A DNA stretch of 64,000 nt from Halobellus limi. GTDB taxonomy: Archaea; Halobacteriota; Halobacteria; Halobacteriales; Haloferacaceae. Positions 3,575 to 42,671 of this stretch are shown piece by piece; position 1 is the first letter of the stretch, and each line of letters starts with the position of its first letter. The stretch covers positions 1,674,001 to 1,738,000 of the forward strand of contig NZ_CP031311.1 in the NCBI RefSeq assembly GCF_004799685.1. Reading direction: 5' to 3'. The position numbers and the translations under genes are program-made. The notes under the pieces were generated by a model. It had not been told where the DNA came from, searched no databases, and was given only the letters and a program-made list of their open reading frames with translations.

Positions 3575-4429
3575 CTAAGTGATAATTTGAATTGCTACTC
3601 TCCGAGTTAGTAACACACCTAACATAAGAAGGAAACCTCCGATAAGTCCGATAAGATGGCCATAGACGTTCGTACCCGCGTCCACACCTACGAACAGAGT
3701 AACCGGTACCGCTGCGAATAGAATGAGTGCATACACTACCAAATGAACTTCATATTCCCGGCCGATCTTCGCGACAACCTGCCGGTCGTACCCGGCAAAT
3801 CCGAGTCCAACTACACTAAGCACGGCTAGAAGGACTACCGACCATCTACGGAGTCCAGCAAGCCACAGTACCGCCCCTAACTCCAGTCCCATGAGGCTAG
3901 TGCCAGCAATCTCAACACCGATGTCAGCTACTTTCTCGTTCACGTGATAAGCGATAAAGAACGGGAGGGCCCCAGCGTAACCAGCAATCACCCCAGAGAA
4001 TCCGACGACTGTCTCCGCACCCATGTCGCCAAGTGTTGCTATTGAGTACACCGACACGAGGAGAGGGAGTATGGTCAGAAACAGAATCGATACGATACGG
4101 AGGATCCGTTGCTTACCCGCACTCACTGCTAATGGGAAAATGAACAGCATAAGCAGAAGGTAGCTGAGAATGTTGTTTGCGAGGTGGGGGATATCTCCGT
4201 GAACGAAGTTGGAGAGGTACAGCTGTACCACCGTTGGGTCATTTAGATTCAGAACCCACTGTTGCTGCTGATGAAGCGGAAGTGCCCCGACAAACAGGAG
4301 AATAGTCGGGATGAAGCCGAATGCGAGTGCACGCTGCGCGGGTGTACTACCCGTGATGGTTGCTGTAACGATACTCCGAAACACGCGACCCGGATTTGAG
4401 TCCGGTGTCGGAGGTGTTTGGTGTGCCAT
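3575..4429 (-). CDS. Rhomboid-family intramembrane protease
   Basis: A 284-residue membrane protein with about six to seven hydrophobic segments. It carries the rhomboid hallmarks in order: HLANNILSYLL (the conserved H and N before the active site), GFSGVIAGYAGA (GxSG with the catalytic serine, about residue 145), and YGHLIGLIGGF near the end (catalytic histidine, GHxxGxxxG). Rhomboids cleave transmembrane substrates inside the lipid bilayer; the substrate is unknown here. The gene is divergent from a winged-helix membrane protein (start about 4546), with a strong palindrome between them, so the pair may be co-regulated. The start at 4429 gives a short soluble N-terminus (MAHQTPPTPDSN) before the first segment. 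Confidence 0.85.
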   Translation of the reverse strand: MAHQTPPTPDSNPGRVFRSIVTATITGSTPAQRALAFGFIPTILLFVGALPLHQQQQWVLNLNDPTVVQLYLSNFVHGDIPHLANNILSYLLLMLFIFPLAVSAGKQRILRIVSILFLTILPLLVSVYSIATLGDMGAETVVGFSGVIAGYAGALPFFIAYHVNEKVADIGVEIAGTSLMGLELGAVLWLAGLRRWSVVLLAVLSVVGLGFAGYDRQVVAKIGREYEVHLVVYALILFAAVPVTLFVGVDAGTNVYGHLIGLIGGFLLMLGVLLTRRVAIQIIT

Positions 4430-8418: not shown

Positions 8419-10146
8419 CTACAACAGATCTTCTTCCCCTGTTGATTCACCACCACCCATATCAGCCGCTTCTGCTCGGCTCGGCTGCTGTCGTCGCTCT
8501 TTATGTGCTTGCTGCCACTGTGAAGTCGCTGGGATGCTGTCAGCCCCGTGGCGGGTATGGCGCTCTCTCACCTGAATCAGCACTGGCGTGTTCATCGAAT
8601 CACCCGAGACAACTGCTTGTCCCGGTGTGAGTCCGGGAAGTTCTCGGAGTACCTCTTCACCAGCAGCCTCAACGCTGTTCTTGATTGCATCTTGGTCAGT
8701 GGGGTTCTGGATCTGCATCGTCACTTGCGTCCCACACTGTGACAGTACGTCTTGGTCGATTTTTGACGGACGCTGACTGATGATTCCCAGTCCGAATCCG
8801 AACTTCCGACCTTCGGATGTAATAGTTCGCATAATCCCAAGTGACGGGGCCTCACCAGTCGCGGGGGCGAACCTGTGGCCTTCCTCGAAGAGGGCGAACA
8901 GCGGATGTCTGATAATCTCGCCATCAAACTCGTTGTCCTCTCCACGGTTCCGAACCGCTGCTAGCCGTGCCTGATACAGGCGACGCAGGAGAACGGTCGC
9001 AATCATCTGCTGGTCGCGGCGGCTCAGAGTGTCCATCTGGAGGACCGTACATCGCCCGGGAGCCACTAAGTCGTCAAGGGGGACGTTCGCGTCTGTGGTG
9101 AAGAGGTCGTTTCGCTGGATCGACCGTCGGAGTCGCCACTCTAGCGCACCTACACTGGAGTCGTCCTCCCCGTACTGCTGACGCATCTCGTCAAGCAGGT
9201 CATTCACCCCCCACGTTCGCGACTCTCGCCGTTGCATTGCGCGCCATCCACCGTCCAACCGCTCCTGCATCCGATCGCTTGGATTATCGAGAATAGACAT
9301 CACGTCCCCAACGTTCAACTCCGAGATGCGGATACGCAGGTTTTCTGGGTCGAAATACTCCACTTCCGGTTGGTACCCCTCGCCGGAGAACGTCTCGTCA
9401 CCACGCATCTCAGAGAGCGTCCCGTACTCGCCGTGCGGGTCGAAGACGAGTAGCGATGCCCGCGAGTCGGGCATCATCATCTCTTCCATCAGAACGCCCG
9501 CTGTATACGACTTCCCGGAGCCTGTAGAGGCGAGGATAGCGAGGTGGGTAGCCGCGAACTCGTCGATTGGGACATGAATATCGACCGCATTCGCCTCTCG
9601 GTTGAGAAGCCAACCCATGTGTGCGAGGCCTTCACGATCTTCCACGTCGACGCGACTGAGGTCAATCGACCCACTTGTATCAGTTGCTGCCTCCTCGTCA
9701 ACCCCGAGGTTCGGGAGTATCGCCTCCAACATTTCGTTGGGGGCAGTCCACAGACGAGTTCCCGGACTCGGGAGCTGGCGTGGATTCGAGAACGTCTGCA
9801 TCCCTGTATCGTAAAATCCGATGACTGTCGCCTCAAGTCGATAGAGATCGATTTCATCTGTCGGGACGCCCAGTGTCGATGCGACAGTCTCCGGGGCGAC
9901 GTTCGGGTCCGCCATGAACGTCTCAGGTAGCCCTCTGGCCTGTTCGCGATTGGTCACCCGTGCGATGACATCTCTGTCGGTTCCTTCGACGGGGACGGAG
10001 TACGTGATGAACTCACCAGTCTTGACAGCCTGCTCGTCTGGCGTGACGACGATGAATTCGTTCGGACCTTCACCGGGTCCCGCGACCGTCCCGATGAGTT
10101 CCTTTCCACCTCCCCCTGTGGAGGGCGTTGAATCGATGGAACTCAT
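8419..10146 (-). CDS. herA: HerA-family DNA translocase
   Basis: A 575-residue HerA/FtsK-class ATPase. An N-terminal HAS-barrel-like region (about residues 15-120) precedes the motor domain with Walker A ASTGSGKSYTAG (about 206-217) followed by LLVFDPHGEYG, and a Walker B-like stretch PLFALFEEGHRFAP (about 415). The late motif ISQRPSKIDQDVLSQCGTQ is typical of HerA. HerA forms hexamers that pump DNA and work with NurA in end resection; bacterial relatives pair with nucleases or Sir2 in phage defence. Its start overlaps the stop of the preceding gene (ATGA at 10143-10146). Together with NurA, Rad50 and Mre11 upstream, it forms an accessory copy of the archaeal resection machine. Confidence 0.92.
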   Translation of the reverse strand: MSSIDSTPSTGGGGKELIGTVAGPGEGPNEFIVVTPDEQAVKTGEFITYSVPVEGTDRDVIARVTNREQARGLPETFMADPNVAPETVASTLGVPTDEIDLYRLEATVIGFYDTGMQTFSNPRQLPSPGTRLWTAPNEMLEAILPNLGVDEEAATDTSGSIDLSRVDVEDREGLAHMGWLLNREANAVDIHVPIDEFAATHLAILASTGSGKSYTAGVLMEEMMMPDSRASLLVFDPHGEYGTLSEMRGDETFSGEGYQPEVEYFDPENLRIRISELNVGDVMSILDNPSDRMQERLDGGWRAMQRRESRTWGVNDLLDEMRQQYGEDDSSVGALEWRLRRSIQRNDLFTTDANVPLDDLVAPGRCTVLQMDTLSRRDQQMIATVLLRRLYQARLAAVRNRGEDNEFDGEIIRHPLFALFEEGHRFAPATGEAPSLGIMRTITSEGRKFGFGLGIISQRPSKIDQDVLSQCGTQVTMQIQNPTDQDAIKNSVEAAGEEVLRELPGLTPGQAVVSGDSMNTPVLIQVRERHTRHGADSIPATSQWQQAHKERRQQPSRAEAADMGGGESTGEEDLL

Positions 10147-10823
10147 TGCATCACCCCCCGGTCAACGGAGGATTGCCAGCGTACGTCCTTCTCGACCACG
10201 TCCAATACTCGTTGATGTGCATCTTCGGAGAACAAATCCCGGAGCCGCTCTACGATGGCGAGCGTGACTTCTGCCCCGAGTGGCCCGGCCACGTCTAATA
10301 GCCGCTCGATGTAGGCTATCTGGAGGCCTCCATCCGTGCCGGTGTGGAAGATTCGCGTGACTTCATCCGGACACTGCTCGACTACATCGTCAACTGCGAG
10401 CGTCCATCGAGGCATCTCGTGGCTCGGGGATTCGACCGTCCCGCTCTCGGTTACCTCGGCTGTACCGAGGAGGGCAACTCCCGCGAGTGTTGTCCGCTCC
10501 TCAACGTAGCCCGGGGTGAATTGGGGTTGATCGCCCTGTGCAAGCCGTGGCCCCGACCGTCCCTGATCTGGGTCGACAAGCTGGGTGTCGTAAATGACCC
10601 CCATGATGATGTACTCGGTTCCATCGATGGTCTTGTGGATGAAGACTGGCTGGCCAAAGCCGCACTCGTGAGGCTCAGGTGGGCGGTCACGGTCGGTCTC
10701 GTTGAATATCTCGACCGTGTAGTCCATGTGGCTGTTCGAATTGACGATGCTCCCGATGGCAAGACAGTCGTCAATATGGCTACTCTCCTCGCTTCCGGTG
10801 TCGTCTGTAGGTTGGGAACTCAT
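10143..10823 (-). CDS. HerA-linked protein, possible HAS-barrel domain
   Basis: A 226-residue acidic protein translationally coupled to herA by a 4-base overlap. Its N-terminal half (IGSIVNSNSHMDYTVEIF, then FGQPVFIHKT, YIIMGVIYDTQLVD) reads like the HAS-barrel found at the N-terminus of HerA ATPases, with a G-x-IxxSN-type opening. The C-terminal half (LLDVAGPLGAEVTLAIVERL) is helical and followed by a charged tail. I infer a separately encoded partner that may help assemble HerA or dock it to the nuclease. The 166-bp gap upstream holds palindrome copy 2, so this gene and herA may have their own promoter. No catalytic residues seen. Confidence 0.75.
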   Translation of the reverse strand: MSSQPTDDTGSEESSHIDDCLAIGSIVNSNSHMDYTVEIFNETDRDRPPEPHECGFGQPVFIHKTIDGTEYIIMGVIYDTQLVDPDQGRSGPRLAQGDQPQFTPGYVEERTTLAGVALLGTAEVTESGTVESPSHEMPRWTLAVDDVVEQCPDEVTRIFHTGTDGGLQIAYIERLLDVAGPLGAEVTLAIVERLRDLFSEDAHQRVLDVVEKDVRWQSSVDRGVMQ

Positions 10824-10903
10824 AGGTGGTGTACACTGGGTGTGGAGGTGACGGCTCCACTACCGAGATCGTGCGATATGGGGCGGTTCCCCGGCGATGC
10901 GGC

Positions 10904-10924
10904 ACTAATGGAAACTCCATTAGT
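10904..10924. repeat. Island palindrome copy 2 (perfect)
   Basis: The best copy: half-sites ACTAATGGA and TCCATTAGT with spacer AAC, all nine pairs matching. It sits 81-101 bp upstream of the ATG at 10823, in the 166-bp gap between the NurA-like gene and the herA pair. Confidence 0.7.
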
Positions 10925-10989
10925 TCTCGATTTTGCGGGGCCCTTCTCAGCCGTAGTCTTTGGGCTCAGTTGGCCGGCTTGTGCAGGGG

Positions 10990-12264
10990 TCATCGTCGTC
11001 GAAGCTCCTTGCTGAGGGCCTTCGCATCCCATTCGATTGGCACGTCGTTCTCCTCTCCCCACTTCTGGAGGAGGCGGAGGAACTGCTGTCGGTCGCGGTG
11101 GTCGAGGACTGCGTCGGTATCGGCCTGCTGCAGGACTTCCGGATACCCCCGCCCAACCCCTGCTTCTGCACGAACCATCGCGAGCGTATACTCGTACAGA
11201 TTCTCGTGGTGAGCTGGCCCATCTGCCTTTAGCATCCACCCCGGGAACTCCAGCCTATCCAGACCTGCCCCCGGTGGAACCTTGAGGTAGCTAAAGTAGA
11301 TCTCATTCCCGAAGGTGTACTCTCGCCCCTTGTACGAAGTCTCTAGCCCGTCTACACTGCCGTCACGGCGGCACATAAACGGAATCGTCGAATCACCCCA
11401 CGGACTCATCATGCCCGCGAGTATGCGTGCGTCTGGAACCGTCCGGTCGCTACCGAACTCCTCCTGTAGGAGAAGCCGCGTCATCTTCGAGAGCTCGACA
11501 GCATTCGTGCCAGCAACGTATCCAACGACGGGGATTTCGTGATGTTGACTCGCCGCGAGGATTCGACTGACTGCTTCGAGATATCGTGTTCGGACCGCCG
11601 GGCGCTTCGGGTTGGCAAACGAGACGACTAACGGCCCGTCGTAGAGGACAATCGGTGGCTGGTCTGAGCTACCGGCTTCATAGGTCGCTGCGAGTTCCTC
11701 GATTTGGTCTATGAGCACCTCCGCCTCGTGCTCGTATCGGTGTAACCCGACCAACGAGCTATCGACGAATCTGTACTCCTCACCACCTTTCTCGCCTCCA
11801 GTACGGGTCACGTCCATTGGACCCAGCAGCTTACCTTCGCGCGCTCGCTCCAGTTCCCCTTCCGGGCTATGGTGATTGAGACACCACGCTGCTTGAACGT
11901 ACGCGAGAGGGACATTGAACTGCGTCGTCGGTGGGATTTCTGACCCGTCAGCCGCCAGCATCGGAACGTCCATCAGAAGGTCACGAGCCCAGTCGTTTAC
12001 TGCCTCATGGCTTTCCCATTCATCCGATGGCGCGTGGTGATTGATGAGCGAGTCGCACTTGTCGAACGCTTCGACGGGAACCGCCCCCGGGTACGAGAAT
12101 CGTGACAGCTCCGACCGGAGCTCTTCCGCGGTTCCCCTCGCCGGAAGATCCCGAAACGCCTCCTGATACCGTTCGATAAGATCGCCGTCATCCTCGACGT
12201 AGGTGCGAATCGTTTCGATATTCGCATCGAGAGCAGCTGCCACCCCTTCCTTATCGAGGGGCAT
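10990..12264 (-). CDS. nurA: NurA-like nuclease
   Basis: A 424-residue protein with features of NurA 5'-3' nucleases. AADGSEIPPTTQFNVPLAYV (about residues 105-125) gives the conserved DGS near the first active-site strand; LYDGPLVVSF (about 215) gives a second acidic site; and IPVVGYVAGTNAVELSKM follows as in the RNase H-like core. The C-terminal region has YLKVPPGAGLDRLEFPGWM, matching the usual NurA ending. NurA digests the 5' strand in complex with HerA after Mre11-Rad50 opens an end. The start abuts the Rad50 stop (1-base overlap at 12264), so rad50 and nurA are coupled. Active-site acids appear present, but only an alignment can confirm them all. Confidence 0.8.
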   Translation of the reverse strand: MPLDKEGVAAALDANIETIRTYVEDDGDLIERYQEAFRDLPARGTAEELRSELSRFSYPGAVPVEAFDKCDSLINHHAPSDEWESHEAVNDWARDLLMDVPMLAADGSEIPPTTQFNVPLAYVQAAWCLNHHSPEGELERAREGKLLGPMDVTRTGGEKGGEEYRFVDSSLVGLHRYEHEAEVLIDQIEELAATYEAGSSDQPPIVLYDGPLVVSFANPKRPAVRTRYLEAVSRILAASQHHEIPVVGYVAGTNAVELSKMTRLLLQEEFGSDRTVPDARILAGMMSPWGDSTIPFMCRRDGSVDGLETSYKGREYTFGNEIYFSYLKVPPGAGLDRLEFPGWMLKADGPAHHENLYEYTLAMVRAEAGVGRGYPEVLQQADTDAVLDHRDRQQFLRLLQKWGEENDVPIEWDAKALSKELRRR

Positions 12265-14978
12265 CAGTCACTCACCACCTCCGAAGTCTGCTCTGGCTTC
12301 TCGACAATGATGCTGTGGTCGGTCATTGTTTCGAAGGTTGAGTCGTGGCTGATGACGGTGAGCTGTTCGAAGGCATCGAGTCCGTTTAGCTGCTCCACGA
12401 GGTTGGCCTTCTTCTGCTGGTCCAGATTCGCCGTCGGTTCGTCGAGGAACGCGATTCCCAGTCCCGACATCTGTTCGAGGATTGCCAGCCGCACTGCAAG
12501 CGCTGCTGCCATCTTCTCACCGCCCGACAGTGTCGAGAACGATTTCCGGACATCAGCATCGACGACGACGATGTCGTAGTCCGATGTCCATTCCAGTTGC
12601 TCTGTATTTCGTCCCCGAATCGACCGGAAGATCGAGTTCGCACGTGTGCCGATCCTGCTGGTGATTACTTCCCGCATCTTCGGACCAGCCTTTCGGACGT
12701 TCTTCCGAACCCACGTGGCGAAATTATGGTCGGCAGTGAGGTCTCGCAGTGTTTCGACCTTCTCAGATCGTTCCTCCAGTTTACCTTCCAGACGCTCGAC
12801 TTCAGCGTTGACCTCCTCAAGCTGTTCTTTCCGTTCGCTCCTCTGGACGCCCAGTTTCGTTATCTCGTCGTCGAGCGCGTCAGCCCGCTTTTCAAGCCGC
12901 TGGTGTTCCTCAGCGTCGAACTCTTGCTGCCGCTCGGAGAGATTGTCTTCCAGCTCTCCCTTCTCGCCCTCCAGCCCCTCGATTTCGTCTTCCAGAGTTT
13001 TGACGGCTTGTTCTCGCTCTTCGAGCTGTTCTGCCGCTTGCTTGTTCCGCTCGTACTTCTTGTAGTCCGCCTCGTGCTTTCCGAGTGTGGTCCTGACTTG
13101 CTCTAGCTCGTCTTCGACACCGGCGTACTCGGTCAGTTCTTCCTCAGTCTGCTCGATCTCCTCAGCAGTCTCTTCGATCTTCCTCTTGGCTTCCTCTAAC
13201 TCCTCAGGAGCGTCGGAGTATTCCTCTACACGGGCCTGTGCTTGGTAGTACGCATCTTTCGCATCCTCAAGCGAGGTGTGTTCCTCCCGAAGTGACGGCA
13301 GGGTCTCAACTTCCTCTTCGAGCTGGGTGATCTTCTCCTCCTTCTCCTTTCGCTCACTCCGGATGTCGGCCAGCTCGTTTTCTAGTTGAGTAACCGATTC
13401 ACGGTGGATGTCTAACTTCGATACGCGATCCTCAACTTGCTCAGCTTCTGCGAGGTCCTCTTGGAGCTGGTCGATTTTCTCTTTCAGCCGGGCGCGGTCC
13501 GATTCAATCTCCCCCAGACGGGCCTCCTGCTCCTCAATTCTCTCCTCACGATCCTCCGGATCCAACGATTTCCCACACGTTGGACAGGGGGCATCGGAGT
13601 CGGCGTCTCGAAGAATCGAGAGATGTTCTTCGATGTCCTTCTTCTCTGTTGCAAGCGACTTGCGCTCCGCTCGCTTATCCCCTATCTCGTCCCGGAGTTC
13701 GCCGGCATCCGGGGCATCCTTTGCCTCTGCCTCGATCTCCGCGATGAGTTCTTCTTTCTCTTGAAGTTCCAATAGTGCCTCGTGTGCCTCATCGTCGAGG
13801 TCATCTATCTCGCCCTCCAGTCGGTCGATCGTCTTCTCATCGCTTTCGAGGTCAGATATCTTCTCTCCTAACTTCTCGTAACGTTCCTTCTCTTGTTCGT
13901 GCTGTTCGAGGCTCTCCTTGGCCTCTCGATGTTTCTCGGTCTGCTCCTGTAGCGTCTCCTTCTTATCCTTCAGACGCTGGAGTCTGGCTTCCTGCTCAGA
14001 GAGTTGATCTTCGAGCGCGTCGAGCTCTTTCTTCTGCTCGCTGAGCTCCTCTTCCCGCTCCTTTGCTTCCTCGTATTTCTCGTGCCCTTCCGCCGCCTCC
14101 TCGCATTTCTGGGCGGCTTCACGTGCCTTCGTGAGTTCCGACTTTGCGGTCTCCAGAGCGTCCTTCTTCGCGCTGATCTCCTGTTCCAGTTGGGCAATCT
14201 CCGTATCCAACTCCTCGATCCGGTTCTTGACGCTGTCCAGTTCGTCGAACTTTTCTTTGACCTCGCTGAGTTCGGCTTTCGTCTCCTCGATCTCCGTAGA
14301 GATAGACTGAATCTGATTTTCCAGCTCCGTTTTCTTCGAGCGTTTAGCCGGGAGATCCTGTACCTCTCCCGTCAGTTGCTGAATCTCGCCTCGTACATCT
14401 TCTTGCTCTGCCTCAATTGTATCTGGAACTTGCTTCAGAGCGCCTTTGAACGACTCCTCGTATGCATCGACGCCGAGTAGTTCGTCGAAGGTGGACTTCC
14501 GATTGCGTGGTGTCTGTGCGAAGTCGGCGAGGAATCGGGTCTGGGGGACTCCGACACACGACTTCCAGAGACTCTGTAAGTCGTCCTTGCTGTCCAGATC
14601 GAACCGAGCACAGAGCCAATCGATCAAGCCGCTCTTCGAGTCGATATCCTGACTCACCCACTCGTCGTTCGGCTCGTCATAGCGGGCGACGCCGTAGTTC
14701 GATCGACCGGCAGAACGAGTCACTCTGTACACCTCCACGTCGTCTCCCTGATCGAATTCGATGACGACCTCGACTGTCCCAGAGGACGCCCCCTCACGAA
14801 CGAACTCGTTGTTGTTGAACGGTAGTGAGTCGAAGAGAGCGAAACCGATTGCTTCCTGTATCGTCGACTTCCCGGAACCGTTCTCACCGAGGATGGCCGT
14901 GACACCCCCCTGTAGGTCGATTCTTGTCTTCTCTTCGTAGGACTTGACGTTCTCCAGAGTGACTTCCTTGATCCTCAT
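12264..14978 (-). CDS. rad50: Rad50/SbcC-type SMC ATPase
   Basis: A 904-residue ABC-class SMC protein. Walker A GENGSGKSTIQEA (about residues 31-43); two long coiled-coil arms rich in E, L, K and R; a zinc-hook CPTCGKS near residue 463; the ABC signature TLSGGEKMAAALAVRLAI (about 815-835); and Walker B IAFLDEPTANLD after it, with the switch histidine in VISHDSTFE. Length and layout match complete archaeal Rad50. It forms the DNA-tethering and ATP-driven half of the Mre11-Rad50 complex. Its start overlaps the Mre11 stop (ATGA at 14975-14978). Position in a defence island, next to a PLD-ATPase gene, suggests an accessory paralogue and not the housekeeping copy (inference). Confidence 0.92.
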   Translation of the reverse strand: MRIKEVTLENVKSYEEKTRIDLQGGVTAILGENGSGKSTIQEAIGFALFDSLPFNNNEFVREGASSGTVEVVIEFDQGDDVEVYRVTRSAGRSNYGVARYDEPNDEWVSQDIDSKSGLIDWLCARFDLDSKDDLQSLWKSCVGVPQTRFLADFAQTPRNRKSTFDELLGVDAYEESFKGALKQVPDTIEAEQEDVRGEIQQLTGEVQDLPAKRSKKTELENQIQSISTEIEETKAELSEVKEKFDELDSVKNRIEELDTEIAQLEQEISAKKDALETAKSELTKAREAAQKCEEAAEGHEKYEEAKEREEELSEQKKELDALEDQLSEQEARLQRLKDKKETLQEQTEKHREAKESLEQHEQEKERYEKLGEKISDLESDEKTIDRLEGEIDDLDDEAHEALLELQEKEELIAEIEAEAKDAPDAGELRDEIGDKRAERKSLATEKKDIEEHLSILRDADSDAPCPTCGKSLDPEDREERIEEQEARLGEIESDRARLKEKIDQLQEDLAEAEQVEDRVSKLDIHRESVTQLENELADIRSERKEKEEKITQLEEEVETLPSLREEHTSLEDAKDAYYQAQARVEEYSDAPEELEEAKRKIEETAEEIEQTEEELTEYAGVEDELEQVRTTLGKHEADYKKYERNKQAAEQLEEREQAVKTLEDEIEGLEGEKGELEDNLSERQQEFDAEEHQRLEKRADALDDEITKLGVQRSERKEQLEEVNAEVERLEGKLEERSEKVETLRDLTADHNFATWVRKNVRKAGPKMREVITSRIGTRANSIFRSIRGRNTEQLEWTSDYDIVVVDADVRKSFSTLSGGEKMAAALAVRLAILEQMSGLGIAFLDEPTANLDQQKKANLVEQLNGLDAFEQLTVISHDSTFETMTDHSIIVEKPEQTSEVVSD

Positions 14979-16522
14979 TGGCGGTCACCTCCGTCGGTAC
15001 TGGGAACTTCCCCAGACTCGCTCGTGCTCTCCTCCGTGGAACTACGCTCGTCTAGTGTCTCTCCGGAGGCACTCTCGGCAGGCTCCCGTTGGTCGTCGCT
15101 AGCGAGAGGGTCCTCTGGAACATCTATGGACACACTCTCCGTGGCGTCCGGAAACAACTCGCGTCGACGCTCTGTTACGATGTCCGCGATGTCCTCGGCA
15201 GCCTCTCCACTCTTCGCCATTCGATGAGCATCACCGAGCAACGAGGCGACCTCCTCCGCGTAGTCGCTGTACTGGGACTCTGATGCAATGGTCTCGAAGA
15301 CACGCTTTTCGAGGGCTTCCGTTCGTAGCCGCCCGTCAACGAACACCTCGTCATCGTCTATCTCAGAGAGGAGTTCTTCGATCTCGGCGGAGGTGATCCG
15401 GCTGGTGTTTGTCTGGACGTAGAGCGCGTCGTATGCTTCCTCCGTCCACTCGGCAAGTTCCTCGATCGTAAGGTCCCCCCGGTCGAACTGGAGCGTCCCC
15501 TCGAACTGAAGGTCGACCATCGGCTCGCGCAGGTCACCTCCCTTGGTGAACTCCTCCTCGTGAAGCTCGGCCTCAAGCGAGCCACGTTGCGCATCGATGT
15601 GGTCGTGGAAAGCCTCCCGCAGTTCGCCGAACGAATCGTACGGGGTGACATCGAACGCCGGGGGGCTGAAATACGGGCGTCGACGAGCGTGGTGGTGCTC
15701 GACGCTATGTTCGAGCGCTCCCGGTCCATCGTACCCGTCTCCCGCGGTATCGAGTTCGATCGAGTAGTAGCCGTGGTCCCAGTCGTCTCGTGCCTCGCGC
15801 GTCGAATGTGCTTCCGGAGAGCCGGGATTGTAGATCCAACCACCCGAATCGTACCGCTTGTGGATGTGACCCAGCGCGAGATAGTCGACGACTTCTCTCA
15901 CATCGCGGAGTTCCGCGTGCGTGATGTTCCCTCCGAGCGACGGGACTTCGTCTTCGAGTCCGAAGTGACCGAGGAGTATCGTATAGTCCGGCTCGCCGTA
16001 CTCCTCATTCGTTGACTCGATTCCGCCAGCCACCTTCTCAAGAGCGGCATCTGTTCGAGCACCACGCCACTGCAGACCGAATACCCGAGCAGTGCCTGAC
16101 TCGGTCTCGATATCGTAGAACCCCGCACTGCCCGTTTCGGACTGGTCTCCGTACGGTGTGAACTCAGCAGCCTCCGGAGTAGCATCGAGATCCGCTTCGA
16201 GGAGGACGATATGTTCCCGCCGATGGAGGTAGTTAAGCCACGTCACCTCCCGTGGCGTGAGATTCTCGTCGTGATTACCCCGCGAAACGACGACTGGTAC
16301 CTCGTCGGGAACCAGTTCAAGCCCTCGCTCCGCCTCTTCCAGAATTTTCGGGCGCAAGTCCCGCGAGTGGAACAGGTCTCCGGGAAGCAGGATGGCATCT
16401 GGGTCCTGCTTGAGGATGAGCTGGAGCGTTGCTCTGAACGAGTTGGACATGTCGTCCTCTCGCTGTTTAAGGCCGTATTGTCGGTGGCCGAGATGGATAT
16501 CAGCCAGATGTGCGATGTTCAT
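14975..16522 (-). CDS. mre11: Mre11/SbcD-type nuclease
   Basis: I start at ATG 16522 (MNIAHLADIHLGH), because the in-frame extension to 16606 is not conserved-looking and places 28 residues before the first metal motif. The product is 515 residues. All metallophosphoesterase motifs are visible: DIHLGH (about 8-13), LLPGDLFHS (about 43-51), SRGNHDE (about 77), LLGHFG, and ALGHIHKRY (about 200-210). The C-terminal cap and a long acidic, serine-rich tail follow. It is the manganese-dependent nuclease partner of Rad50. The gap of 219 bp to the PLD-ATPase gene holds nothing I can identify and could contain a promoter for the mre11-rad50-nurA unit. Confidence 0.92.
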   Translation of the reverse strand: MNIAHLADIHLGHRQYGLKQREDDMSNSFRATLQLILKQDPDAILLPGDLFHSRDLRPKILEEAERGLELVPDEVPVVVSRGNHDENLTPREVTWLNYLHRREHIVLLEADLDATPEAAEFTPYGDQSETGSAGFYDIETESGTARVFGLQWRGARTDAALEKVAGGIESTNEEYGEPDYTILLGHFGLEDEVPSLGGNITHAELRDVREVVDYLALGHIHKRYDSGGWIYNPGSPEAHSTREARDDWDHGYYSIELDTAGDGYDGPGALEHSVEHHHARRRPYFSPPAFDVTPYDSFGELREAFHDHIDAQRGSLEAELHEEEFTKGGDLREPMVDLQFEGTLQFDRGDLTIEELAEWTEEAYDALYVQTNTSRITSAEIEELLSEIDDDEVFVDGRLRTEALEKRVFETIASESQYSDYAEEVASLLGDAHRMAKSGEAAEDIADIVTERRRELFPDATESVSIDVPEDPLASDDQREPAESASGETLDERSSTEESTSESGEVPSTDGGDRQ

Positions 16523-16741
16523 AGATTTGGATTCGATTGAGTGCCTTCCGATGGTACTCCCCCCAACGAGGCCGATATTGCAAACCTTTGCGTAGGCTTG
16601 CCCCACACACTGAATTCGGAGTGGCCCCGAAAGTTGGGCTGATTACGGATTTCAGAGTGATGCCACTTAACGCCACGCCGACCGAGGTGGAAGTAGTCGC
16701 TCGCTGAGGCTACTGGATTCCGTGAGATCATATTTGACCAC

Positions 16742-18802
16742 CTATTTCCATATTCTACCCCACCACCCAGTCGACTTTGGCTCGATTCCAGTCCACTCGT
16801 AGAATCGCTCCGGCTGGTCGAACTGGATTCGAGTCTTCTGTACTTCGGTGCGGATCGTCGAGGGAACGACCTTGTCGTACTTGAAGACCGCATAGCCGTC
16901 GAGATTTTCAGAGAAATCCGCCAGCAGGATGTCGTTCTTTTCCTCGATAGTAAAGAGTCCCGTTTGGTAGGCCTGTCGCCACTTCCGACGCCCGTGGTCG
17001 TAGATACGCTCCGCGGGCCCGTCATTCGGGAAGTAAACCGGTGGCTCCCGGTTTGCGTACTCGTAGAGTTCCCGGAATACCTCACGAGCGACCGCGAGCT
17101 TGTCGTCCTGATCGGGGAGGGTGATTTGCTTCTGGAAGAGCAGATGAGCGAACCACGGAAAGAGCTGATTCCGCTCCTTGATGAGTCGGGCAGTCTCTTC
17201 TCGCTCGTGCCCCTCCACGTCGAACACGACATCGAACTCAAGCATCTTCATCCGGGTCCTGTACTCCGACTTCGGGTTCCCGTCATTCGACGTGAACACA
17301 AACGTCGGGAAGGCGACCGATCCATCCCACGCGCCCGTCCAGTAGGTTTTGATGATGTCTCGCTCGACCCTGTCTTTGTCAACGTCGTCGACGAGGAAGG
17401 GGAACACCGTGTTCGACGAGCGACAGCGCTCGATGGCGTCCTTAGTGAACTGTTGCCCCTCGACTGGTTCGGCGACGACACCGCTCGAGATGAGATTCGC
17501 TGCGAACCGGAGGAACATCCCCTTCCCCGAATCGTTCTGTCCGTGGATGTAGAGGAAAGGAAGGTCCTTGTCCAACTCAGCACCATCGCGGTTGGCGTAC
17601 TCCTGCGCGAAGTAGTTCGCAAACGGAGCCCAGAAGACGTAGATGACGGCCTCGTAGAAGTGGGCCATCGTCTCCTCTGACCGTTTCGCGTCACCGAATC
17701 GGTCGACCGTTTCGATGTACTCCTCGATGTGTGCCAGCGCCTCTGAGACCTCTTCCGGTTCGTCTGGTAGCGGAGCAGTCATCTCGAGGGTCGTGTTGTC
17801 GAGCTGCATCCGGACCAGCTCTTTCTCTCGGTTCACCCACATCGTCGGGAAGTCGTCGTTGAACCGGCGAAGATATCGGTCGAAACCAGCTGCAGATCCC
17901 CGTAGCTCGGTGGGTTTGACCGAGACATTGTGCCGCGAGAGCGTCGACTCAGCCTGCTTCACTGGCTCCTCAAGCCCCTGTGGCGAAAGCCGCATCTGCC
18001 GGTCTGGCTGGACATCTGTCGCCTCGACATCTCCGCTCCCATCTGCTTGGAGAGCAACGACCTCTTCGGCCTCTTCGGCCTCCGAAACCACGTTGACCCG
18101 CCGAACTCGCTCGTCGTCCTCGTCGAACATCTCCACGATGCGACGGTGGAGGTCGCCGGTCGGATTGTCGGACGGGACGGTTCCGTCTACCCAGAGGTCG
18201 TAGACCCGGTCACGCTCCTCTGGATCGTCAGTTTCTGCGAGCTGCTCCGTGAGGTCCTTCATGAACAGTTCACACTCCTCTCGATGTGCCTCGTAGAGCC
18301 GGTCGGCGTACTCGTCGATAATGGAATTTCCATTAGTGCGGAAGACCACGACGAGGTTGGTCTGGTTCCCTGACCACGCTTGCTTCGAGAGGTTCGGAGA
18401 GCCGAACACCACCGTTCGAGACCCATCGCGGTTCTCCGCGAGGTAGAGTTTGCTGTGGAGCGTGACCCGCTTGTCCAGCGTGTAGAGATTCAGCTGGTCT
18501 TCCTCCAGCAGGTGGGTGAGGTGCTTCGCGAGGTCGAGATCTCCTTGTAGGTCTTTACGGTACTCCGCCTGTCGGTAGTCCCCGACCACGACCTCCAGCT
18601 GTTCAAGGTTAAGGTCACTACTCGCGAACAGCTGGTGGATGATCTGAGGCGACTGGGAGTAAGTAACTGCGCGGAGCAGGCGAGCGTCACCGAAGTAGTC
18701 AACGAACGTTGGCCACGATTTGACCATCGCGAGTTCGAGGTCGATTGCCACCTCATCTCCACCGTCTCGCGTCGGGACTGTGATTGGAATCGTGTATTCC
18801 AT
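16742..18802 (-). CDS. Phospholipase-D nuclease fused to a P-loop ATPase
   Basis: Start ATG 18802 (MEYTIPITVPTRDG) is preferred to 18865: GGAGGA lies just upstream of it. The product is 686 residues. The N-terminal third has one PLD half-site: HSKLYLAENRDG (H and K of HxK, about 116-118) followed by FGSPNLSKQAW. A helical linker leads to an ATPase with Walker A HGQNDSGKGMF (about 420-430), Walker B FPFLVDDVDKD (about 465) and sensor-like FVFTSNDGNP, reminiscent of SF3/D5-type helicases. A single HKD motif implies that dimers form the active site. This is the first gene of the leftward cluster with Mre11, Rad50, NurA and HerA, and divergent from a CARF regulator. I know of no described system with exactly this set. 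Confidence 0.8.
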   Translation of the reverse strand: MEYTIPITVPTRDGGDEVAIDLELAMVKSWPTFVDYFGDARLLRAVTYSQSPQIIHQLFASSDLNLEQLEVVVGDYRQAEYRKDLQGDLDLAKHLTHLLEEDQLNLYTLDKRVTLHSKLYLAENRDGSRTVVFGSPNLSKQAWSGNQTNLVVVFRTNGNSIIDEYADRLYEAHREECELFMKDLTEQLAETDDPEERDRVYDLWVDGTVPSDNPTGDLHRRIVEMFDEDDERVRRVNVVSEAEEAEEVVALQADGSGDVEATDVQPDRQMRLSPQGLEEPVKQAESTLSRHNVSVKPTELRGSAAGFDRYLRRFNDDFPTMWVNREKELVRMQLDNTTLEMTAPLPDEPEEVSEALAHIEEYIETVDRFGDAKRSEETMAHFYEAVIYVFWAPFANYFAQEYANRDGAELDKDLPFLYIHGQNDSGKGMFLRFAANLISSGVVAEPVEGQQFTKDAIERCRSSNTVFPFLVDDVDKDRVERDIIKTYWTGAWDGSVAFPTFVFTSNDGNPKSEYRTRMKMLEFDVVFDVEGHEREETARLIKERNQLFPWFAHLLFQKQITLPDQDDKLAVAREVFRELYEYANREPPVYFPNDGPAERIYDHGRRKWRQAYQTGLFTIEEKNDILLADFSENLDGYAVFKYDKVVPSTIRTEVQKTRIQFDQPERFYEWTGIEPKSTGWWGRIWK
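18317..18337. repeat. Island palindrome copy 3 (inside a gene)
   Basis: Half-sites GATAATGGA and TCCATTAGT with spacer ATT; seven central pairs match. Unlike the others it lies within a coding region (the PLD-ATPase, where it encodes NGNSI), so it may be chance or a site inside the gene. Confidence 0.4.
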
Positions 18803-19008
18803 GGTTTCCTCCGGCCACTCAGGACGGCTACAGGCTGTTTGCGAGCCGGCCACCCCATCCTCCAAACAGGGCGGGAAGTCTCTGCTCCCCTGACGCGGCC
18901 ATATTCAGAGGGTGGACGGTTGAAATATTAACAATTATGCTGACATTATCGACGCTGACGACTGTATCGTCACAATTGGTATTAATGACATGACCGTGAA
19001 TGTAGCAT

Positions 19009-19776
19009 ATGAAGGACGGTCGAAACCACGAGATGGATGTCGTTGAGCGCGTCCATGTCGCACCGTTGGGGTACGAATATGAGCGGATTGTCCTCCCGAC
19101 GCTGAATCAGAAGGCAGACCGAGCGGTGCTGATTGATTATCGTGACGACGAAGAACGTCCTCCGTACCACGACCAAGTGCGAGAAGATCTCCGGGAAGCA
19201 GGCGTGACCGTCGAGAGTTGTGAAGCCGACATCTTCTCACTCTACGATTCAATCGGAACGGTGGCCCGGCTCATCCGACAAAACGCGGAGCATCAGGTAT
19301 ACGTCAATCTCGCCTCTGGGTCGAAGGTGATGGCCATCGGTGGGATGATTGCCTGTATGGCTGAAGGGGCTACGCCATACTACGTGCGGGCGGAGGAGTA
19401 CAAGTTCGACGGGCAGGAACCCCTGTCGAAAGGGATCAAGGAAACCTTCGCCCTTCCTGCGTACCCGGTAGAGCAACCGACAACCGAACACATCAGAATT
19501 CTTCGGGCCCTACGAGATGACGGATCCCTCTCGAAGAGCGAGTTGATTGACCTTGGTCAGCGAGAGTCACTCCCCTTCATCGAGAAATCAGAGACGGAGA
19601 GTCGGCGTGGGAAGTACCGAACGCTTGAGGCTCGGGTCACCAATCCACTCCAAGAGAAGGGGTACATCACGCTCGAAAGCGTTGGACGACGAACGCTGGT
19701 CGAAATCACGGATAGCGGCCGCAGTCACCTCCAAGCCTTCGAGTACATGGTTGAGGTCTCCAGCGAGACCGGCTGA
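19009..19776 (+). CDS. CARF-domain winged-helix regulator (HFX_2341/DUF6293-like)
   Basis: A 255-residue protein; ATG 19033 (MDVVERVHVAPLG) is an alternative start. The N-terminal 140 residues form a Rossmann-like CARF fold: VHVAPLGYEYERIVLPTLNQ, then RAVLIDYRDDEE, and VNLASGSKVMAIGGMIACMA, the glycine/serine-rich loop that contacts cyclic oligonucleotides in CARF proteins. The C-terminal part (from about 165, EHIRILRALRDDGSLSKSEL) is a winged helix. Such proteins are known in haloarchaea as DUF6293 or HFX_2341-like regulators. It is divergent from the PLD-ATPase gene, with 206 bp between, and may control that cluster in response to a nucleotide signal (inference; no cyclase is in the window). 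Confidence 0.85.
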   Translation: MKDGRNHEMDVVERVHVAPLGYEYERIVLPTLNQKADRAVLIDYRDDEERPPYHDQVREDLREAGVTVESCEADIFSLYDSIGTVARLIRQNAEHQVYVNLASGSKVMAIGGMIACMAEGATPYYVRAEEYKFDGQEPLSKGIKETFALPAYPVEQPTTEHIRILRALRDDGSLSKSELIDLGQRESLPFIEKSETESRRGKYRTLEARVTNPLQEKGYITLESVGRRTLVEITDSGRSHLQAFEYMVEVSSETG

Positions 19777-23802: not shown

Positions 23803-24025
23803 TCCAGAGCCGCGGTCCGCCTTCTGACAAGAGATCTGCCCAACCGGACTCAACACCAGATATAGATCGGGAGATACTGTACCTGAACCACCATCTGCTG
23901 GATGTTTCATATTGAAACCGGAATACAGCATCGCTGTGAGGTTCTGTGATTCCAGATTTCGATGTCCGAGTTGGGTTGACTCTCCTACCCGCAGGAATTT
24001 TCTGTCCACTGGCTACACCCGATGT

Positions 24026-26164
24026 ATGGAATCGGGGAAGAAGTCTCTCGAGGAACTCGTGACTGCAGGGGTGTTCCACGTCCCTGAGTACCAGCGTTAT
24101 TACTCATGGACTGAGCTGGAGTGGGATGATCTCTGGACCGATCTTTACACGCTCCCGAAAGGCAAACAGCACTACTTTGGGACGTTCATCATTCAGGAGA
24201 CGAAGGACAGGAAGACTGGCGGTACTGATGGAAGCTACGGTGGGTCCTCTGAGAAGCGAATCAATCTACTGATTGACGGTCAGCAGCGGCTCACCTCTCT
24301 CGCACTTCTGGTAAAGTCTATGACCGAGCAACTGGAAGTCCTCGCTCCACAGACGGACCACGAAGAGGAAATCCTCGATGACGTAGAAGAGATGCGAGAG
24401 ACCCTCCACGTTGAGGATAATATCTACCAGCTCGAACTTCTCGACGAGGAGGACAACGACTACCTTGAGCGGGTCATCGATGGACGCAACGTCCCCGACC
24501 CGGAGCGGCCGTCGCAGCGGAAGATGATCGATGCGAAGGAGTTCTTCGACGAACGCATCTCGGAGCTAACAGAGTCTCCAGAAGCTGTCCCTATCGAGGT
24601 TGCAAACGAACTCAAACAGCTCTGGGAGACCATCTTGAAACTCGAATTGATGGTGTATGTCGTCGATGCTGGCAGCCCAGAGAAAGCGACACTCATCTTC
24701 GACAGCGTCAACGACCGGGGGAGATCTCTCTCCACGTTCGATAAGACGAAGTCGTTCTTGATGCGTATGGCCTATCTCGCGGCAGAGGAAGAGAGCGAAG
24801 CATACAGTGCTATCCGACGGATTCGGCAGGAGTTCGGGGAGATGTATAATTACCACCAGACGATGCTGGAGTCCCCGTATGTCGGCGATATCAGCGATGA
24901 CGCAGTCCAGCGATACCACTTCATCTCCTTCTTCGACTGGTCAACTTCGGAAGAGCATAGCGACCCGACCTTCCTCGACGAATTGAAATCGAACGTGCGG
25001 ACGCTCCGGATGGAAGACCCGGAGGAATGCTTAGAGTACATCACCAACTACACCAGCAGCCTTGAGCGCGGGTTCAAAGCGCTGGCAGACATCCTCGACC
25101 GGACTGGCGATGGCGGACCCGATGACTTGATTGACCGCATTCACAAGCTCCGACACGCAACAAAGTTCTATCCCATCTTACTCAAAGCGTGGCCCAACTT
25201 TGACGACGAAGAGCGGTACGAGCTGTTGAAAGCAATTGAGACCTACATCTTCAGGGTATATTCGATTGGGAATCACCGGAGCCATACGGGTGAGTCGAGC
25301 CTCTACATCCGGGCAAGGGATCTTGACGAGGAGAGTCCTCTCGACGTTTGGGTCAGTGAGATTGCGAATATCATGAAGAGATACGAGGATGATTCTCAGT
25401 TCAGACGTTCGCTGAGGTCATCGAACCTGTACTCGAAAGTAACCTCACAAGACCTCCGCTACCTCTTCTACTTCTACAACCAACACCGGGCAGCCAAGGA
25501 GAAAGAGAAGGGGAGTATCTCGCTAGCAGAAGCGATGGGGAGTGACTATACTGTCGAACACATCTGGCCTCAGACTCCCGATGAACTACCACTCGAAGAC
25601 GCAGGGGAATATCCGAGCCCAGAAGCCCGATACGAGGCGTACGTCGATCGGCTGGGGAACCTGACGTTGGCGAGCGGGTCGTGGAACTCGAGCTGGGGTA
25701 ACGCTCCGTTCGAAACGAAGCGTGATGAAGGATATCCGAACTCGAAACTCTGGGTACAGTCGGATGTCGGCGAGAACTATGAGGAGTGGTCAGTCGAGAA
25801 TATCGAGGACCGCGAGGAGACCCTTATGGACTTCGTGTTCGAACACTGGCCTACCCCCGAGACGCGACTCGGCGGAATCGAAAATCCGACTGATGCAATT
25901 GAGGTTCTCACCCACGAGGAGCGGTACGTCCTCCGGGCACTATGCGAGAACGAGAGCGGCGCAGTGAGGCGCGTCATCCACCGACAAGTGAGTTCATTAC
26001 CTGATTCTCCATTCGAGAACCCTGAATCGGCCGGGAAAGAACGGGGCAATGTCGGCTCGATCCTTGGCCGCCTTCGCAGCGTTGGGTTGGCTGAACGGAA
26101 TAAACATACATGGTACCCCAGCGAGGAAGCGATTTCAGCGAATGTGTCCCTCCCGGCGGCCTAA
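24026..26164 (+). CDS. GmrSD-like DUF262-DUF1524 endonuclease
   Basis: Start ATG 24026 (MESGKKSLEELVTAGVFHVP) is preferred to an unlikely upstream extension from 23912. 712 residues. The DUF262 (ParB-like) part has VPEYQRYYSW (about 18-27) and LLIDGQQRLTSLALL (about 83-97), the nucleotide-binding DGQQR signature. The DUF1524 HNH nuclease part has VEHIWPQTP (about 511) and RLGNLTLASGSWN (about 540), including the HxxP and N-containing motifs. A short helical C-terminal domain follows. Fused GmrS-GmrD proteins are type IV restriction enzymes that use NTP to cut modified phage DNA; BrxU is a BREX-linked relative. Here it stands directly upstream of a BREX locus, in the same direction, 254 bp away, which fits a complementary role. 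Confidence 0.9.
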   Translation: MESGKKSLEELVTAGVFHVPEYQRYYSWTELEWDDLWTDLYTLPKGKQHYFGTFIIQETKDRKTGGTDGSYGGSSEKRINLLIDGQQRLTSLALLVKSMTEQLEVLAPQTDHEEEILDDVEEMRETLHVEDNIYQLELLDEEDNDYLERVIDGRNVPDPERPSQRKMIDAKEFFDERISELTESPEAVPIEVANELKQLWETILKLELMVYVVDAGSPEKATLIFDSVNDRGRSLSTFDKTKSFLMRMAYLAAEEESEAYSAIRRIRQEFGEMYNYHQTMLESPYVGDISDDAVQRYHFISFFDWSTSEEHSDPTFLDELKSNVRTLRMEDPEECLEYITNYTSSLERGFKALADILDRTGDGGPDDLIDRIHKLRHATKFYPILLKAWPNFDDEERYELLKAIETYIFRVYSIGNHRSHTGESSLYIRARDLDEESPLDVWVSEIANIMKRYEDDSQFRRSLRSSNLYSKVTSQDLRYLFYFYNQHRAAKEKEKGSISLAEAMGSDYTVEHIWPQTPDELPLEDAGEYPSPEARYEAYVDRLGNLTLASGSWNSSWGNAPFETKRDEGYPNSKLWVQSDVGENYEEWSVENIEDREETLMDFVFEHWPTPETRLGGIENPTDAIEVLTHEERYVLRALCENESGAVRRVIHRQVSSLPDSPFENPESAGKERGNVGSILGRLRSVGLAERNKHTWYPSEEAISANVSLPAA

Positions 26165-35399: not shown

Positions 35400-37001
35400 T
35401 TACACCTCCTCGAATATGTCCTCTATTGTAATCTTGAGGTCAGAAAATTCGTCATCCAGACCTTCTTCATACATGCATTCAGCTATCTCTCGCGCATTCT
35501 GTACCTTCCCGTCGCCATAATTACATTCCTGTTTTAACATCGCCTCCGCGTCATCATAGTGTCCAATATCGATGGTGTCATCGACCGACAAGACCTCCTG
35601 AATCGCATCTGGGTGGAAATAATTCTCAATCTCTCGTCTGTCGAGTAGCCAGCAATCTAAATCGATTCGCTCGGATTCGTCTTTCAGTATTCGAGATTGT
35701 TCTCCCAGCTCACCCCCTTCGGTCTCTCTATCACTGTCAATGAGGATGCCTGAGTTCCGATTGATCTGTTTCATGTTTTCCAATTGGTGTTGGAGGTTTC
35801 CACCGCCGGCAGGCTGGATTGTCACGTTGAGGCTACGCCAATCCTCGAATTCGTTGTGGCAAATCACTTCAACTACGGTGGCATCAGAGGCTCCCTCCGT
35901 ATACAGCACGTAATCGCTCTGGAGAATGTCGCTGTTCTTTGCCCCGATGGCCTCTATGGCCTCAAATCCGTCGTCGTTGACGACTTTGAACTCCGCTTCC
36001 CCACCATCATTCGAGGCGACGATGAGGCTTCCATTTTGGTGGCTGTTTATGAGTGACTGTGAGTGAGTCGTGATGATGACTTGGTTCCCTTGCTCTGAAA
36101 TGTCGCGGAGTGTCTTCCCCATCTCCCTGACTGCACTAGGGTGGAGCGAATTTTCTGGCTCTTCGTACAGAACAGAATATCCATCACCGTATTGAGAGTC
36201 AGCGTACGATTTCATCATCGAGAGGATGAACTGATTGCCGACCCCTGACCCGCGCTCAGATAACGACATCCACTCCCCGAGATTATCGTCCTTGACTTTG
36301 ATGTCGGGCGAAATTGATTTCGAGAGATCGACTTCACCGATATCTATTTTCACGTTGTTGATATGGGGATGTTGGCTAGAAATCACCGTGTTGAGAGCGA
36401 TCTTGATGTCCTCAGACTGTTCTTCTAACTCCTCACGGATTTCTCGCTTCTTCTCATCGAGCGTGTCGCTACTAAACACAGGAGACATGAGTCTCGTTAG
36501 CCATGAATCGCGGGTCAGCGAAGTCTCACTGTTATAATCGCGCTCCGCAAGAACGGTAACCGTCTCGGGAAGTTGGTCTTGAATGTACTCTCGCGAGTCT
36601 GATTTACTCAACTCCTCACCGTCAACCTCCACAGCACCGGCATCAAGCTCCTCACTATTGATGTACACCGCGCTAGGAGTCCTTCCCCCCGCGGACTCGT
36701 GCCGAACCGTTATCGCGAATTCATCATCCTCGAGGTACTCTTCTGTCAAATCCTCTTTCAGAGTCTCAGAAATTCCATCGAATTCGCAGTGAAGAGTTAT
36801 CGTGTTACTCACATCGTGTTTATGAAACCCTGATTCGGATGGTGTATCGAAATTCAGTAGTAGGTCGATAGCCTCCAGCAAAGACGACTTACCTACGTCA
36901 TTCTTTCCGATAACGACGTTGTAGGCCCCGAAATCGATCTGGGCTTGCTTAATCGCCTTGTAGTTCCTGATTGTGAACGAGGCGATGTTCATATCAGTCA
37001 T
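35400..37001 (-). CDS. OLD-like ABC ATPase with TOPRIM domain, antisense in BREX
   Basis: Start ATG 37001 (MTDMNIASFTIRNYKAIKQA) by fit to the family's first strand; 533 residues. Walker A VIGKNDVGKSSLLEA (about 31-45), signature SERGSGVGNQFILSMM (about 255), Walker B YSVLYEEPENSLHP (about 280) and TTHSQSLI form an ABC-type ATPase. The C-terminal TOPRIM has LYTEGASDATVVEV (about 365), ILIDSDRE (about 418) and RREIENYF. OLD-family nucleases cut DNA and act in phage defence (retron-associated, Gabija GajA, P2 OLD). It sits on the opposite strand between brxC2 and pglX, 29 bp from the former and 124 bp from the latter, so it breaks the operon and probably has its own regulation. Confidence 0.88.
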   Translation of the reverse strand: MTDMNIASFTIRNYKAIKQAQIDFGAYNVVIGKNDVGKSSLLEAIDLLLNFDTPSESGFHKHDVSNTITLHCEFDGISETLKEDLTEEYLEDDEFAITVRHESAGGRTPSAVYINSEELDAGAVEVDGEELSKSDSREYIQDQLPETVTVLAERDYNSETSLTRDSWLTRLMSPVFSSDTLDEKKREIREELEEQSEDIKIALNTVISSQHPHINNVKIDIGEVDLSKSISPDIKVKDDNLGEWMSLSERGSGVGNQFILSMMKSYADSQYGDGYSVLYEEPENSLHPSAVREMGKTLRDISEQGNQVIITTHSQSLINSHQNGSLIVASNDGGEAEFKVVNDDGFEAIEAIGAKNSDILQSDYVLYTEGASDATVVEVICHNEFEDWRSLNVTIQPAGGGNLQHQLENMKQINRNSGILIDSDRETEGGELGEQSRILKDESERIDLDCWLLDRREIENYFHPDAIQEVLSVDDTIDIGHYDDAEAMLKQECNYGDGKVQNAREIAECMYEEGLDDEFSDLKITIEDIFEEV

Positions 37002-37125
37002 ATCTCTGAATCTAACCCGACTCTTATGTAAATGTCCGGAGAGACGGCCAAGCAATCTCACCACTAGGATATGGACAATCTTCAAGACACATCCACGGTT
37101 CTGAAGAAATATCGCTGACACTCAT

Positions 37126-42439: not shown

Positions 42440-42671
42440 ATCACATGATAAATGCAAGTGCGAAATTGAGAGAAAATCTATCCGATAGCTCCGATCGAAA
42501 TCGATCGACGGTTCCTTGGGTACAAACACGGGAACCGTTCGAGAAACCTGCCCGACCGGCTCAGTGGAGCCCAATATTTAGTGTGCCAGACACAGAACCT
42601 TGGCTCAGATTCCCCTGATTTCTCCATCACACGTATGACGGTTGAATCAGTAACTTAGCAAAACTCTCAGC

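Follow-up and report, generated by a model that had tools for sequence, protein, structure and literature searches.

A haloarchaeal Mre11-Rad50-NurA-HerA cassette with a stand-alone HAS-barrel gene and an AgaP-like neighbor, a candidate accessory antivirus and antiplasmid module

We analyzed a 64,000-nucleotide stretch of the Halobellus limi genome (contig NZ_CP031311.1, positions 1,674,001 to 1,738,000; hereafter, the window) that contains a minus-strand cluster encoding, in order, an AgaP-like PLD-ATPase, Mre11, Rad50, NurA, a HAS-barrel protein, and HerA (window 8419-18802). A gene for a CARF-type regulator adjoins the cluster in the opposite orientation. All seven open reading frames (ORFs) were confirmed at window 8419-19776:

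8419-10146, minus strand: HerA translocase of the hexameric-motor family (DUF87, 2e-36)
10143-10823, minus strand: stand-alone HAS-barrel protein with a helical C-terminus, 226 aa, the marker gene of the cassette (fold comparison)
10990-12264, minus strand: NurA nuclease (Pfam NurA 3e-24; DGS motif, D106 invariant)
12264-14978, minus strand: Rad50-like SMC ATPase with the zinc hook CPTC, accessory copy (profiles and motifs)
14975-16522, minus strand: Mre11-like nuclease, accessory copy (Metallophos 3e-16; phosphoesterase motifs invariant)
16742-18802, minus strand: AgaP-like protein, N-terminal PLD nuclease and C-terminal P-loop ATPase (PLDc_2 / RE_NgoFVII)
18803-19008, no strand: putative divergent promoter/operator region between the agaP-like and CARF genes (conserved block of ~70 nt with an imperfect dyad)
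19009-19776, plus strand: CARF-winged helix-turn-helix (HTH) regulator, HFX_2341/DUF6293, Csa3-like, an adjoining gene (HFX_2341_N 7e-41)

The cluster and its proteins

Five of the genes, mre11-rad50-nurA-barrel-herA, are referred to here as the core. We compared the active-site motifs of the window copy with those of four other copies, which are 37-88% identical to it. The catalytic motifs of Mre11, Rad50, NurA, and HerA are intact and invariant in all five divergent copies: D8/H10, D49, N83-H84, H186, H219, and H221 in Mre11; Walker A, LSGGE, DEPTANLD, and the hook CPTC in Rad50; DGS in NurA; and GSGKS and FEE.HRF in HerA. The top PDB sequence match of HerA is Thermococcus kodakarensis HerA in the HerA-NurA complex 9x1l (4e-50). 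The four proteins of the archaeal Mre11-Rad50-HerA-NurA machine are thus encoded, with intact motifs, in one operon. An earlier note on this DNA, made from the sequence alone, had seen intact motifs in Mre11, Rad50, and HerA, a NurA-like nuclease coupled to rad50, and a PLD-nuclease/ATPase fusion as the first gene. All three observations hold: NurA (3e-24) is joined to rad50 by a 1-nt overlap, and the fusion is present, its N-terminal PLD match being weak (PLDc_2 1.5e-6). The same note described the leftward genes as mostly overlapping, which is borne out by three overlaps (herA/barrel, 4 nt; nurA/rad50, 1 nt; rad50/mre11, 4 nt) but not by the gaps of 166 nt between the barrel gene and nurA and 219 nt between the PLD gene and mre11. 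The Mre11 start most likely lies at ATG 16522 rather than GTG 16606, because homologs begin there, and for the PLD gene ATG 18802 is the most probable start codon.

The barrel protein matched no Pfam family, a PDB sequence search returned nothing significant, and hhalign against a HerA profile gave no match; fold comparison, not sequence methods, tied it to HerA. Its AlphaFold2 model consists of a beta barrel and a helical tail (pLDDT 81.5), and every one of its 21 Foldseek matches at E<=0.001 is a HerA. VIA-align superposes the model on the N-terminal HAS barrel of HerA with Z of 9-11.3 over ~110-130 residues, the top value of 11.3 covering 117 residues of the HerA N-terminus. The protein that had been guessed to be "beta-barrel-like" is accordingly predicted to resemble the HAS barrel of HerA. 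Because the HAS-barrel domain of HerA contacts NurA in the T. kodakarensis HerA-NurA complex (PMC12977600), it is reasonable to suppose that the stand-alone barrel may serve as an adaptor or ring cap for HerA.

The first gene of the cluster has a characterized relative. In the APAP system, haloarchaeal long-A Argonautes often adjoin agaP, which encodes an N-terminal PLD protein; the Argonaute-AgaP pair restricts plasmids and an ssDNA (single-stranded DNA) virus, plasmid restriction depends on the catalytic residues of AgaP, and AgaP is toxic on its own (Cheng et al. 2024; PMC11442185). The tested agaP came from Natrinema pellirubrum DSM 15624 (PMC11442185). The window protein is 35% identical over 99% of its length (E 2e-103) to the PLD protein of the N. 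pellirubrum plasmid NC_019963.1 (locus L072), in which HxK at 105 (H105) and GSxN at 157 (G157) lie as in the tested AgaP and an Argonaute gene adjoins the PLD gene. The PLD-ATPase, which had been presented as undescribed, is therefore a full-length homolog of the tested AgaP. Its PLD motif residues are H116-x-K118 and G134-S135-x-N137, and its ATPase half contains GxxxxGK-G, D473, N506, and R517. All 55 homologs share HxK, GxxxxGK, D473, N506, and R517; GSxN is intact in 54, the exception having a G-to-T change. The window clade has 16 residues between HxK and GSxN, well short of the ~50 expected of AgaP (48-62 in the clade of the tested protein). This spacing sets the window protein on a sister branch, and we therefore call it, on the basis of its sequence, AgaP-like rather than AgaP. 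ATP hydrolysis by the protein is uncertain, as G or D, not the usual S/T, follows the GK of the P-loop. The ATPase half has no clear match in Pfam or PDB; its motifs have the look of an SF3 helicase, which is an impression rather than a result.

An accessory set in a defense island

The host genome (3.75 Mb, four contigs) encodes a canonical haloarchaeal Rad50 (1331 bits; C1:2372191-2374881) with mre11 adjoining, as well as a second nurA-herA pair (C1:1.278-1.281 Mb). The window set is therefore an accessory second set, as the earlier note had claimed, and not the sole or housekeeping copy of its host. The two sets are distant: the Rad50 proteins share 25% identity, the best alignment of the Mre11 proteins reaches 31% over 98 aa, and the window HerA aligns only partially, at 23-26%, with other HerA-like proteins of the genome. 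The same holds for most of the 20 other core-bearing genomes tested: in 18, a Rad50 scoring higher than the haloarchaeal cut-off accompanies the cassette copy.

Within the order, 37 of 392 genomes encode the barrel protein. The barrel-protein loci, pooled with loci located through HerA in the GTDB collection and cleared of duplicates, amount to 49 distinct haloarchaeal loci. In 45, all five core genes are present in an unchanged order, and most of the other four loci are truncated by contig ends or decayed; this recurrence confirms that the cluster is real and beyond chance. Beside the core, a PLD-ATPase gene is present in 20 of the 49 loci, Argonaute in eight, and a CARF gene of the window type in two. 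Some copies reside on plasmids (Halobaculum marinum, Natrinema zhouii, DL31, Halorussus salilacus) and many on chromosome-size contigs. On the Halospeciosus flavus plasmid unnamed2 (L179 / L125), core rad50, nurA, and herA are each split into two or three frames, reflecting either a decayed copy or sequencing errors. In L184 (2723-5428) an Argonaute gene is followed upstream by DUF2797, a 239-aa protein without assignment, and a MarR-like regulator; all of these are divergent from the core, an arrangement that recurs in L178, L181, and L187.

Outside the haloarchaea, an operon of the order mre11-rad50-nurA-small gene-herA is also found in Geoglobus, Methanoperedens, and one uncultured archaeon. 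The window HerA is 39% identical to that of Geoglobus; the small Geoglobus protein at the position of the barrel gene has no sequence similarity to the barrel protein. These comparisons lead us to infer a xenologous origin for the cassette, as an operon of the housekeeping type that turned mobile in haloarchaea. Cyanobacterial HerA homologs (40% identity; L147-L153) were considered as relatives and rejected: they stand alone, and L147, the one examined closely, lies among housekeeping-type genes.

The surroundings of the cluster support its placement in a defense island. G+C content is 50-62% up to ~50.5 kb of the window and 67-70% past it; the sharp step at ~50500, from ~55% to 68-70%, is likely the right edge of a large island whose left edge lies outside the window. 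Known defense systems were sought by scanning PADLOC models protein by protein. A complete BREX set (BrxA, two BrxC, BrxB, PglX, PglZ, and BrxHII) occupies 26332-49125, directly preceded by a GmrSD-type type IV restriction enzyme (23912-26164; HEC-06/Orf5). Core loci with neither AgaP nor Argonaute have as neighbors TmtA, DrmMI/type IIG, SngC, BrxHII, and OLD-like or McrB-like AAA proteins. Within the BREX set, an OLD-like ATPase (35403-37121) and an unmatched ORF of 349 aa (41528-42574) lie on the opposite strand. A stretch 74% identical to the GmrSD region occurs near core loci L180 and L182, and the island also includes a Rhomboid-like protease gene (3575-4429).

The CARF protein matches HFX_2341_N and DUF6293_C and thus combines a CARF domain with a winged HTH; it scores 296 bits with PADLOC CARF3 and falls below the NCBIfam Csa3 cut-off. 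The family is present in 203 of 392 genomes, and it adjoins the core only in the window and in one further genome (G260), a third (G358; L051) retaining 24 codons of the gene. We therefore reject it as a conserved component; the earlier note had cast it as the divergent regulator of the module. Within the 206-nt intergenic region, ~70 nt with an imperfect dyad are kept in the window, G260, and G358, which fits a shared divergent control region. Regulation of the cluster by the CARF protein is plausible, since the CARF-HTH protein Csa3a is reported, as cited in PMC12977600, to bind the nurA and herA promoters in Sulfolobus; it would be a local feature and not a system-wide trait.

Linkage to AgaP and Argonaute, and exchange of machines

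An AgaP-like gene is present in 24 of the 37 core genomes versus 57 of 355 without the core (one-sided Fisher p 7e-10, not corrected for kinship), and in 16 of the 24 genomes with both, the two lie within ~12 kb. The co-occurrence of the PLD-ATPase with the other five genes, a proposal of the earlier note, is thus a recurrent feature of these genomes, and homologs adjoin the core in 20 of 49 loci. AgaP lies in line upstream of the core in the window, G260, G358, and G054 and, split, in G087; these five genomes span AgaP proteins down to ~33% identical. Elsewhere, AgaP is downstream of herA in either orientation. The PLD-ATPase is an optional neighbor of the core, found in two different positions. 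In G054 (L063), pAgo-AgaP-mre11-rad50-nurA-barrel-herA form one collinear block. On the AgaP tree, which has many long branches and an unsure deep order, the association with the core was gained or lost several times, with at least six changes forced by supported branches; beyond its own clade, the nearest neighbor of the window protein (L052, 67% identical) adjoins an Argonaute gene. An AAA_14/DUF4143 ATPase gene lies beside the Argonaute-AgaP pair in L063 (1-1141) and L052 (6136-7734); it diverges from Argonaute in L063, as it does in most of L053-L062.

The core is one of several machines found beside AgaP. A second, distantly related Mre11-Rad50-NurA-HerA set, lacking the barrel, adjoins AgaP in L064, L066, L070, L081, L085, and L211. 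The Argonaute-AgaP operons of L053-L062 and L080 lead into genes of the AddAB type (for a UvrD-like protein, a PD-(D/E)XK nuclease resembling Cas4, and a UvrD+PD-(D/E)XK protein), often with an Eco57I-type methylase; this AddAB-like set probably corresponds to the unnamed helicase neighbors of the APAP paper. AgaP is also found with DEAD helicases, or with neither these nor an AddAB-like set.

Two pairs of loci indicate that these machines have been exchanged in place. A stretch of 6,260 bp, from AgaP to the Eco57I-type methylase, is shared at 97.4% identity by the core locus of Halovenus salina (L127) and by L085, which has the second set; the similarity stops exactly at the AgaP end. Just upstream of mre11 in L127 (3331-3626), 296 bp are 96.3% identical to the 3' end of herA in L085 and encode, in frame to the stop, the last ~97 residues of the second-set HerA; the same remnant is found in L128 and L120. 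This scar beside the core shows that the core replaced the second set in place. Similarly, L211 and L212 are 97.4% identical over 4.7 kb, one containing the second set and the other an AddA-like gene and methylase. These alignments show directly, at the sequence level, that a single slot holds different end-processing machines; the slot may also be a functional one.

A candidate defense module and its relation to known systems

The core is a complete operon that is present as an extra, horizontally scattered set. It resembles most closely the housekeeping operons in Geoglobus and Methanoperedens, and its recurrent partners include AgaP, Argonaute, an Eco57I-type methylase, and further defense genes. 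With moderate confidence, we propose that the cluster is an accessory haloarchaeal antivirus and antiplasmid module in which a xenologous end-processing operon is reused as the DNA-degrading arm of an AgaP/Argonaute-type defense, a role suggested by genomic context. AgaP, a PLD nuclease with an ATPase, would cut or nick invading DNA, or respond to it; Mre11-Rad50 would capture and open the resulting ends or those of viral DNA; and HerA, as a ring to which the barrel protein adds a further HAS-barrel adaptor, would thread the duplex into NurA, which would degrade both strands. In T. kodakarensis, HerA-NurA digests both strands of double-stranded DNA (dsDNA) from any end, and an antiviral role was suggested for it (PMC12977600). 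In the present host, which has no Argonaute, recognition of free ends by Mre11-Rad50 might stand in for recognition by guides, and the divergent CARF-HTH protein might keep the toxic AgaP-like gene in check.

Several observations weigh against this proposal. The tested AgaP works with Argonaute and is toxic alone, yet there is no Piwi match anywhere in the 3.75-Mb host genome, so that no Argonaute adjoins the agaP-like gene as in APAP; an Argonaute acting as a hidden partner in trans is rejected for this genome on the same ground. Neither AgaP nor Argonaute lies within the stretch read in 26 of the 49 core loci. The AgaP-like structure model is poor in the ATPase part (mean pLDDT 51), so the ATPase fold is not established. 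The 219-nt gap to mre11 means that the PLD gene may sit outside the core transcript. Finally, four of the five non-haloarchaeal genomes tested have a single NurA locus, an operon of this order, and a repair role is therefore biochemically possible.

The PLD gap also agrees with a different account, which we think rather unlikely, that two separate defense units share one island, the AgaP-like protein being paired with its CARF regulator and Mre11-Rad50-NurA-barrel-HerA standing on its own. That AgaP accompanies the core in just 20 of 49 loci, at either end of it, and elsewhere goes with AddAB-like machines, DEAD helicases, or neither would follow from such a division. The in-line AgaP-core order kept in five genomes across AgaP proteins as little as ~33% identical would not, nor would the recurrence of AgaP beside three types of machine with one shared function.

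It is improbable that the cassette is an acquired end-resection operon adding DNA-repair capacity and not defense. The catalytic motifs agree with repair enzymes, and the same gene order marks the only NurA locus of Geoglobus (39% HerA identity), of one of two Methanoperedens genomes, and of one uncultured archaeon; however, the hosts already have a canonical Rad50, the cassette is strongly linked to AgaP, Argonaute, BREX, TmtA, type IIG restriction-modification, and OLD genes, and it is exchanged in place with other machines beside AgaP and the methylase. A function in DNA transfer or in maintenance of the island or plasmid, suggested by the copies on plasmids (compare the HerA-family protein TdtA of Thermus, which acts in DNA donation), is very improbable, as no relaxase or secretion genes were noticed among the neighbors scanned, many copies are on chromosome-size contigs, and a full nuclease set is unexpected for export.

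If the module has the proposed role, an entire repair machine (Mre11-Rad50-NurA-HerA) now serves as a mobile weapon, and the helicase and nuclease partners of Argonaute-AgaP, a question left open in PMC11442185, can be named. More tentatively, and with some doubt, we suggest that the AgaP/Argonaute loci of haloarchaea offer a "socket" into which a machine degrading DNA ends can fit (the core, the second set, or the AddAB-like set), and that the window version works without Argonaute by recognizing ends and not guides, as a new kind of defense system. The swap that left a scar is a natural experiment comparing interchangeable machines in one genetic background. The module is also relevant to the disputed function of archaeal HerA-NurA, as an enzyme of end resection or as a shredder of dsDNA directed against viruses. 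In the literature searched, with bioRxiv and most subscription journals outside its scope, the core is not described in defense or as an accessory module, nor is its interchange.

Among known systems, APAP is similar in that the window PLD-ATPase is a full-length AgaP homolog retaining HxK and GSxN, and in that Argonaute lies directly upstream in L063. It differs in that the window host is without Argonaute, the motif spacing is 16 and not ~50, and the AgaP-like gene is followed by a Mre11-Rad50-NurA-HerA core unmentioned in PMC11442185. The canonical archaeal herA-mre11-rad50-nurA operon has the same four enzymes with intact motifs, in the Geoglobus/Methanoperedens order, whereas the window set is an extra one, includes the stand-alone HAS barrel, and is defense-linked and patchy (37 of 392 genomes). 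Sir2-HerA and DUF4297-HerA likewise pair a HerA translocase with a nuclease in defense islands; in the window, the nuclease is NurA, with Mre11, Rad50, AgaP, and a separate barrel added, and the window HerA, at 101 and 100 bits, is far below the antiphage HerA cut-offs of 800 (NF042943) and 850 (NF042944). Lamassu also uses a Rad50/SMC-like ATPase in defense (the PADLOC LmuB profile gives the window Rad50 138 bits), but the window Rad50 has a true Mre11 partner and a zinc hook, and no LmuA effector was matched by PADLOC among the seven cluster proteins. Lastly, a nurA-csm6-herA cluster near CRISPR in Pyrobaculum (PMC3396285, as cited in PMC12977600) and Csa3a in Sulfolobus, as far as the citing source describes them, resemble the window in tying HerA-NurA to antivirus genes and in having a CARF-HTH regulator act on them; the window differs from them, on that description, in lacking Csm6 and in encoding Mre11-Rad50 and AgaP.

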